Virus record (IMG/VR): IMGVR_UViG_3300030107_005365 | Coordinates: 1-29,601 of that record | Length of the DNA stretch: 29,601 nt | Reading direction: 5' to 3' (one strand) | Source: a virus | In this document: piece after piece, positions 21,836-23,149 of the stretch | Layout of the letters: the number at the start of each line of letters is the position of its first letter | How positions within the stretch are numbered: the first letter of the stretch is position 1 | The notes under the pieces: generated by a model | What the model was told of the DNA's origin: nothing | What the model saw: the letters and a program-made list of their open reading frames with translations, nothing else | The model's database searches: none | Program-made: the position numbers and the translations under genes

Positions 21836-23149
21836 CTATGCAGATTCATCGCAGCCGATAGAAACGACCTTGGATTCTTCCATCCTAGTCGACCCTACGG
21901 TGGCGCAATAAAATACCTGTGTGGAGTAAGACTTGTCCGAACGCTCATCAATTTTGGCGGTCGTGTCTTTCCCAACAGCAAGTAGGATTCCATCCTCAGC
22001 CCATGCAAAACAGGTTCGGATGTTGGATGCTACCGCGAGGCGATTGCTTACGTGGAACTTGAAGCCAAGATAGGAATCAAGCTCACCGCGAGCTAAGGCT
22101 TTCACGGTATTGAAATCTGAACTTTTGACTTCAGTCGTATTCAGCAAAGCTGAAATCTGAGCAGGCGCTACAACAATGTGTCGCGGAATGCTCGGATCGA
22201 TATCCGCCGAGTCCATGACTTCCTTGGCACTCAGGAGCTTGGCAACCGTCATATCCGCGCTGCCATGTGCGATCGTATTCGCAGCAAGCATTGAGGTGCT
22301 GGTCGAGCCAGCTTTGCCGGTTTTAGACGTACCTGTCGCGGCTGCAATAATCTCATCATCGATGGATCTATTGATAGCCGCGGCAGCTGCCTGAGCATAA
22401 GTTGATGTCGGATCAGCCAACATTTTTACTTTGTCGGCGTCGTCAATCAGGTCGGCCCATTCGTATGTTTCTAAAGTAACCATACGTCTGGAATGTGGGG
22501 TTTCCCGTACCAACTACAGCTTTCACTGCCGTTTTCACGTTTGTGGTCTGGACTATACCTTGACCGTCGCCCAAAGCGTTACGGCCCTCACCGTCTAGTC
22601 TCTACACGTTCCCCGAAGGGCTTCGCTCGGTATTGCCATTTTACAGGTTTCACCGAATTTGATGAGTTTTCAGAAAGTGCTTTCACACTAACTAGGCAGA
22701 AATTTTTACCAGTGGTGTATCCCCGTGTCTTGTCGTCCGCTTTACAGCCGCTCACTTATGTTCGCTTCAGTTCGCTAAACTGAAACCGCTTTCGCTGCTA
22801 TGTGTCGCCACATAGGTCAGATCATATCACCGTCCACTGGGGACGCTCTGCGCTTCGGCTGGGCTTCCAGCCTACTCCCTTTCGGGATGATCGTTGCACC
22901 TTCCCATTTCTGGGCTTGGATCAGGATTGTCTACTAGAGAGTTCCCCTGAGTTCACAGAGTTTTCACTAACGCATCACTGCATTAGGCCGCTAACAGCTA
23001 ACGGAGCCTACTTGGTCGAAAAACGCTTTTTCGCCCGTGACAGACTCTTCACGAACCGCACCGCGAAGGACACTTCCGCGCTGTTGAGCGAGTAAAGCGA
23101 TATTTGAGCTAAACTGCTGAACAAACGCTGTGGTGACTTGTGTGGACAC
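21836..23149 (-). CDS. Major capsid protein, split by two group I introns (287 aa after splicing)
   Basis: The coding sequence is a join of exon 1 (23149-23001), exon 2 (22752-22708) and exon 3 (22505-21836), totalling 864 nt. Exon 1 starts with GTG, five bases after a perfect AGGAGG, and encodes STQVTTAFVQQFSSNIALL through FFDQVGS. Exon 2 gives AAVKRTTRHGDTPL. Exon 3 continues ETPHSRRMVTLETYEWADLI. Both junctions fall inside Val codons (GT|A and GT|G). The joined protein reads through as a Phage_capsid_2-type shell protein without a gap. Without splicing, translation stops four codons past the first junction, so splicing is essential for virion formation. Scaffold precedes the gene and the decoration gene follows, as expected. 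Confidence 0.93.
22506..22707 (-). ncRNA. Group I intron 2 of the capsid gene (202 nt, no ORF)
   Basis: On minus-strand RNA: P1 pairs exon end ACUGGU with GCC-u-AGU, placing the U.G pair at the splice site. P2 is AGUGU-GAAA-GCACU (22689-22676). P3 is CUCAUC (22666-22661) with GGUGAG (22592-22587). P4 is UCGGU with ACCGA (22656-22652, 22631-22627). P6 is CCC-UUCG-GGG. P7 is GACUA (22600-22596) with UAGUC (22555-22551), inside the typical strings GUAGAGACUAGACGG and AAGGUAUAGUCC. P8 is GGCCGU with ACGGUC. A P9 hairpin GCAGU-GAAA-GCUGU follows. The intron ends in G at 22506, and P10 pairs UUUCU with exon 3 GGAAA. It has no P7.1/P7.2 and no endonuclease ORF. Confidence 0.92.
22708..22752 (-). other. 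45-nt internal exon of the capsid gene
   Basis: This exon lies between the two introns and supplies 14 whole codons (AAVKRTTRHGDTPL) plus the outer bases of two split Val codons. It is much shorter than either intron. Both of its ends pair with intron guide sequences: its first seven bases with intron 1 (P10) and its last six with intron 2 (P1). Confidence 0.9.
22753..23000 (-). ncRNA. Group I intron 1 of the capsid gene, IA2-like (248 nt, no ORF)
   Basis: On minus-strand RNA: P1 pairs exon end CCGU and intron UA with UAGCGG, giving the U.G pair at the splice site. P2 is CUAAUGC with GCGUUAG (22986-22967). P3 is CUCUGUG (22960-22954) with CGCAGAG (22852-22846). P4 is UCAGGG with UCCUGA. P6 is CCCA-GAAA-UGGG. 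P7 is GAUCAU (22892-22887) with AUGAUC (22825-22820). Two extra hairpins, P7.1 (CCC-GAAA-GGG) and P7.2 (GGCUG with CAGCC), precede P3. P8 is CGUCC with GGACG. P9 is CUAUGUG-GCGA-CACAUAG. The last base is G, and P10 pairs AGCUGUU with all seven bases of exon 2 AGCGGCU. Confidence 0.95.

Follow-up and report, generated by a model that had tools for sequence, protein, structure and literature searches.

The major capsid protein (MCP) gene of an HTVC010P-like marine podovirus of a bacterial host, carried by a 29,601-base virus record (referred to throughout, at its full length, as the window), very probably contains two group I ribozymes that descend from separate lineages, each of which arrived through its own recombination event. 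On the minus strand, positions 22506-23000 consist of exactly intron 1, a 45-nt exon and intron 2, as determined by spliced alignment (Table 1). The purpose-written spliced protein-to-DNA aligner favours, but does not force, exons that end in T and introns that end in G, and both window introns were placed with these ends. Intron 1 follows nt 149 of the coding sequence (CDS) and intron 2 follows nt 194. Predicted splicing yields a 287-residue MCP that is collinear with its uninterrupted relatives and equal to them in length, and exon 3 is 65% identical to HTVC010P. Both introns exceeded the Rfam Intron_gpI gathering score (50 bits).

As both introns lie in phase 2 and exon 2 measures 45 nt, exon skipping would remove 15 codons in frame. 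Elsewhere in the window, positions 1274-2593 hold a tyrosine integrase gene (Pfam Phage_integrase), and the phage may therefore be temperate.

Table 1. Features of the interrupted capsid gene, of its introns and of the HNH gene, in window positions
Feature	Position	Strand	Remarks
MCP exon 1	23001..23149	-	149 nt; GTG start; 3' end ...GGCTCCGT; spliced alignment to uninterrupted HTVC010P MCP
Intron 1	22753..23000	-	248 nt; group I, IA type with P7.1/P7.2; Rfam 53.6 bits
Intron 1 internal guide GCGG	22988..22991	-	pairs with exon end CCGU, U.G at splice site
Intron 1 P3 5' strand	22954..22960	-	
Intron 1 P7 5' strand	22888..22892	-	
Intron 1 P7.1 hairpin	22876..22887	-	
Intron 1 P7.2 hairpin	22857..22872	-	
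Intron 1 P3 3' strand	22846..22853	-	
Intron 1 P7 3' strand	22820..22824	-	second TGATC, index 177-181
MCP exon 2	22708..22752	-	45 nt = 15 codons in length
Intron 2	22506..22707	-	202 nt; group I, IC3 (tRNA-intron) type; Rfam 61.8 bits
Intron 2 internal guide GCC	22695..22697	-	opposite exon end GGU; picked by eye
Intron 2 P3 5' strand	22661..22666	-	
Intron 2 P7 5' strand	22596..22600	-	
Intron 2 P3 3' strand	22587..22592	-	3 nt after P7
Intron 2 two-part P8	22562..22586	-	two-part shape read by eye
Intron 2 P7 3' strand	22551..22555	-	
MCP exon 3 including stop codon	21836..22505	-	Pfam Phage_capsid_2 1.1e-64 on 21839-22513
Free-standing small HNH protein, 73 residues	27926..28147	-	Pfam HNH_3 1.1e-09; between terminase genes

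Structure and subgroup of the two introns

Subgroup IA2 is defined by two hairpins, P7.1 and P7.2, between the 5' strand of P7 and the 3' strand of P3, and the label IC3 denotes kinship with tRNA introns and a direct P7-P3 junction. The first-pass annotation of this DNA had described two extra hairpins at this place in intron 1, and in intron 2 a direct passage from P7 to P3 with an extended, two-part P8. Both descriptions were borne out: two hairpins separate the P7 5' strand from the P3 3' strand in intron 1 as against 3 nt in intron 2, and the tRNA-intron consensus likewise has a two-part P8. Among 17 capsid IA introns, 7 of the 8 pairs of P7.1 and P7.2 showed changes of both partners in at least one sequence, and pairing was kept in 100% of cells, in an alignment that was fitted to the model. 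Covariation was also seen for P7.2 in 30 other viral IA introns (5/5 pairs). In alignment A4, further pair types were no more numerous than in shuffles (295/500). For intron 2, the automatic P1 finder chose another, probably spurious pairing, and the guide was thus selected by eye.

Subgroup classification was performed with two covariance models of 30 cores each: R1, built from introns of bacterial tRNA genes (alignment A1), and R2, built from viral introns that carry the P7.1/P7.2 motif and lie elsewhere than in HTVC010P-type capsid genes (alignment A2). Neither model includes any HTVC010P-type capsid intron, and both reference sets were themselves gathered by core patterns. Intron 1 scored 130.4 bits with R2 and 25.4 bits with R1, whereas intron 2 scored 110.1 bits with R1 and 43.6 bits with R2. 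As controls, the T4 nrdD intron, which is annotated as a group 1A intron, scored 89.2 with R2 and 25.2 with R1, and the best two matches in Twort orf142 scored 125.2 and 105.5 with R2 and 46.9 and 46.8 with R1; the third of the Twort matches was weak with both models (38.6 and 25.3). Every capsid intron searched divided along the same line. By Blast, intron 1 matched Twort and T4-like polymerase introns, and the top match of intron 2 was HTVC120P. The different lineages proposed in the first-pass annotation were therefore recovered by independent models, and its statement that the two sequences are unlike was confirmed, the longest local match between them being 9 nt, with a score equalled by 193 of 500 shuffles.

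The names IA2 and IC3 are applied here to the R2 and R1 reference sets; the models themselves speak for kinship rather than for a label. Judged by sequence models and predicted folds, intron 1 belongs to the phage IA kind, since it has P7.1 and P7.2 and scores with phage IA introns and not with IC3 introns, and intron 2, with its R1 score and 3-nt P7-P3 junction, is of the IC3 kind that is usual in bacterial tRNA genes. The tRNA-intron kind of intron 2 was absent from the first-pass annotation. The designation of intron 1 as IA2 made there holds as far as IA, in that the intron belongs with the phage IA introns of Twort and T4 nrdD in a comparison without IA1 or IA3 models. IA2 is described as heterogeneous in the available text of PMC11878797.

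Distribution of the introns and divergence of their flanks

Each intron was sought alone in the capsid genes of relatives. Neither was present in the closest relatives (L008-L010). Intron 1 alone, differing from the copy in the window by 1 nt, was found in L011, which is without intron 2. Conversely, L152 carries a 208-nt IC3 intron at the intron 2 site (65/2; R1, 112.1) and lacks intron 1. Co-occurrence of the two introns as one unit is ruled out by these two loci. The first-pass annotation had named constant co-occurrence, or a common subgroup together with sequence similarity, as outcomes that would contradict its proposal of separate invasions; neither was observed.

The exon sequence beside the introns was unusually divergent. 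Compared with L010, the window had 21 differences in CDS nt 149-232 (25.3%) versus 5.5% elsewhere (scan P, 0 of 20,000); all 21 were in synonymous codons, and there were 0 differences in the 100 nt preceding intron 1. Compared with L011, a patch around intron 2 (CDS nt 184-232) contained 14 differences (scan P, 0.009), none of which was non-synonymous; nt 56 to 185, spanning both flanks of intron 1, were identical, and divergence began at nt 186. Within the intron 2 patch, the window was no closer to its four nearest relatives (69-71% identity) than to distant MCPs (up to 79%), and over CDS nt 300-700 it was 94-98% identical to its closest relatives. Identity also dropped near introns in other loci (L242, 81.2% versus 98.2%; L138, 73.8% versus 86.8%; L302/L303, 93.8% versus 98.5%). 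No drop over ±40 nt was seen between L011 and L208 (92.5% in both), in which the change was limited to a stretch of about 27 nt in one flank. Strong divergence of the window from L009-L011 was also found in CDS nt 700-800, where no intron is known. With the exceptions of the L011/L208 pair and of this intron-free patch, the flanks thus showed the co-conversion pattern of mobile introns.

Because the patch at nt 700-800 is free of introns, the MCP gene is mosaic and recombines in any case. An IA intron lies at residue 258, in the nt 700-800 region, in the MCP of a distant relative (L490). A search for a donor allele of the intron 2 patch returned 0 matches, and intron 2 in this exact allele is known from one contig. 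As far as sequence comparison can tell, the patches beside the introns are as would be expected of imported flanks and of separate co-conversion events.

Introns in HTVC010P-type MCP genes were surveyed in loci from four capsid-protein scans of IMG/VR, from phage records and from two intron-pattern scans. There were 300 loci with a capsid match, of which 5 scoring <450 were left out, and the 295 used yielded 221 distinct sequences. Intron calls of <150 or >400 nt, or near protein ends, were excluded as end artefacts, and counts that include the intron-pattern loci are samples among the matches listed. An intron was carried by 13 of the 198 distinct MCP sequences found without an intron pattern, one of which carried two. 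Among the 221 distinct MCPs listed, 36 carried 41 introns at 13 sites (22 IC3 introns at five sites and 19 IA introns at nine sites), with site 199/2 occupied by both kinds in different phages. The capsid gene is thus a repeated target, as the first-pass annotation had suggested. Eight of the 13 sites fall within residues 49-72 (simulation P, 0.00016), and in all five two-intron MCP genes among the 221 listed an IA intron is combined with an IC3 intron. The 41 introns listed measured 192-261 nt, and all had an exon ending in U and an intron ending in G, ends that the aligner favours; GGT preceded each of the 22 IC3 introns listed, at all five sites. The introns of L011 and L636 scored below the Rfam cut-off.

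Two further propositions found no support. One was the placement of intron sites at the most conserved codons (mean entropy, 1.02 versus 1.11, P = 0.20; 89th among 286 circular shifts). The other was descent of all the capsid IA introns from one ancestor, as the tree, in which supports are rough and from which L431 was skipped by the core finder, needs 9 changes and its starred branches force at least 4.

Beyond these genes, 78 of the 120 IC3-core matches listed in viral contigs lay in tRNA genes as called by ARAGORN, mostly in Leu(UAA), a CAU tRNA (Met by ARAGORN) and Arg(CCU). Some of the contigs with tRNA-borne cores (among L088-L206) may be host or provirus. According to the accessible portion of a 2014 review, every phage intron known by that time lay in a protein-coding gene (PMC3984707). 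Other listed matches lay in HTVC010P-type MCP introns (18), in T7-like capsid loci (5), beside T7-like capsid sequence (L090), beside another head gene (L204, for which no splicing to a T7-like MCP was obtained) and elsewhere (17). The match at 4816-4832 of L089 adjoins a LAGLIDADG endonuclease fragment.

In HTVC120P (L636, MH598807), the capsid at 1292-2466 is annotated as two proteins, gp29 and gp30, between which lies an unannotated 197-nt IC3 intron (R1, 105.7 bits). By reading of the alignment, its position corresponds approximately to residue 46 of the window MCP, and the gene is uncut in the HTVC120P relatives Bylgja and HTVC134P. Among 65 distinct T7-like capsid sequences, a set that includes references and four pattern loci, 6 had intron calls, one of them twice. 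The capsid of the deep-sea Chosvirus KT997847 (L719; 3257-4474) is also annotated as two proteins, and its gene contains two R1 matches (108.2 and 74 bits). Two R1-type introns were found in one T7-like capsid gene in each of L133 and L193; the pairing of one intron of each kind therefore fails in the T7-like family. In L399 and L451, three listed IA-core matches each fall within about 1.5 kb, which suggests other multi-intron genes.

Acquisition and movement of the introns

We propose that each intron would have entered by a separate DNA recombination with a diverged capsid allele that already bore an intron at that site, in the setting of a co-infection, and that flanking exon bases would have been co-converted with it. 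The gain of intron 1, which is common to L011, would have preceded that of intron 2, which would fall on the branch that leads to the window. By established group I chemistry, each intron would be expected to self-splice from the late capsid mRNA and restore the 287-residue protein. No recognisable endonuclease was found in the window introns, antisense included, and the two plus-strand ORFs over them matched no Pfam or PHROG family. Because neither intron encodes a recognisable endonuclease, mobility would have to be passive or aided by a nuclease acting in trans, for which the free-standing HNH protein is a candidate. Of the homing suggested in the first-pass annotation, the transfer is implied by the co-conversion-like patches, but the endonuclease has no recognisable counterpart in the window introns, and the 41 capsid introns are uniformly small.

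A founding event at the RNA level is possible but less likely than not. In this scheme, a tRNA-type intron reverse-splices into capsid mRNA at any GGU that its guide GCC encounters and is later copied to DNA, an IA intron does likewise at CCGU, and homologous recombination only spreads the founding insertions. Guide-directed reverse splicing is treated as a route in the available part of a review (PMC3984707), and a founding of this type is suited by the constant GGU before capsid IC3 introns, as 6.9% of the triplets ending in T in these genes are GGT, which over five sites gives about 1.6e-6. In addition, the IC3 capsid introns of the five sites cluster in a tree, where they adjoin a tRNA-Thr(GGU) intron whose exon end is identical to theirs; this tree, from a short search with few columns, several long branches and uneven support, serves as a hint only. 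IA introns at 50/2, 64/1 and 72/0 share CCGT in 6 of 7 cases (L431 has CCAT), and cross-site IA pairs with a common target were more alike (mean 0.735, 8 pairs) than the others (0.677, 102 pairs). However, guide-exon pairing is required for splicing itself, so surviving insertions must match, and guides are re-tuned in IA introns at other sites. The scheme also calls for a reverse transcriptase, for which no source is known, and the co-conversion patches favour DNA recombination for the window copies. A broader version is distinctly unlikely: that the tRNA-type IC3 lineage entered phage capsid mRNA and is spread by GGU-directed reverse splicing within the gene and between distant capsid families, in competition with IA introns for the N-terminal segment. 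Under that version, same-guide copies would tend to be mutually exclusive, since exon skipping would result if two were present.

Movement by the free-standing HNH protein, which would cut intron-less capsid alleles in trans as in the collaborative homing described in the accessible text of PMC10448857, is rather unlikely. The co-conversion-like patches would agree with it, as would the homologues of the window HNH between the scaffold and capsid genes of four Autographiviridae (HTVC025P, HTVC011P, Gjalp and KT997847), among which KT997847 has its capsid gene split by R1-type introns. Yet next to three of these four HNH genes the capsid gene has no intron, the window HNH lies about 5 kb off, the HTVC204P copy is elsewhere in the structural region, and 13 sites could hardly be cut by one nuclease.

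The double-intron state was seen in a single metagenomic contig, as an assembly chimera of two phage populations might produce; this is highly improbable, as intron 1 recurs with one difference in an independent contig (L011), the reading frame is exactly restored, and four other distinct sequences also combine an IA with an IC3 intron in a single gene. Derivation of one intron from the other by tandem duplication, for which the separation of merely 45 nt could speak and against which the first-pass annotation had already argued, has next to no chance in view of the unlike subgroup scores, a similarity within that of shuffles and the occupation of each site alone.

Relation to known introns and significance

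Phage capsid genes with introns, and phage genes with more than one intron, are already known. Intron 1 resembles the introns of Twort orf142 (the tail tube gene) and T4 nrdD in its core, P7.1/P7.2 and R2 score, and orf142 has several introns in one gene, as does the window MCP. Unlike the T4 intron, which encodes I-TevII, intron 1 lies in a capsid gene and is without a recognisable ORF. Intron 2 has a core like that of bacterial tRNA IC3 introns, scoring 110.1 bits with a model made from tRNA introns only, but differs from them in its location in a protein-coding phage capsid gene, its exon end GGU and its length of 202 nt.

In the text available for PMC3706429, the mycobacteriophage LittleE also has a group I-like intron in its major capsid gene, and splicing was shown for LittleE; that intron is single, is given no subgroup in this text and holds an endonuclease ORF, whereas the window introns are two and hold none that is recognisable. 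The same text reports a tail intron in BAKA alongside it, provides in LittleE a precedent for an antisense intron endonuclease, and cites a capsid intron in the lactococcal phage Tuc2009. In phiNIT1 and other Bastillevirinae, as proposed for the window, one gene was colonised sequentially by distinct introns; a small exon between two introns is a further shared feature, and exon skipping is reported for such multi-intron genes (PMC11878797, available portion). Those introns are mainly IA-like and occupy polymerase, reductase and terminase genes, and the term IC3 is absent from the main text of that source as far as it was available. The accessible part of PMC10580990 describes a marine phage whose polymerase gene is split.

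In the literature searched, no paper was found on introns in HTVC010P-type capsid genes or naming HTVC120P together with a capsid. As far as that literature extends, three findings are new: the repeated presence of tRNA-type IC3 introns in marine podophage capsid genes, the presence of two ribozyme subgroups in one gene 45 nt apart, and natural pairs of alleles with and without an intron, in which co-conversion is measurable. Metagenomes, and at least two named records (HTVC120P and KT997847), contain capsid genes that are cut by introns and misannotated. The HTVC120P record lists a host strain, and splicing is therefore directly testable there.
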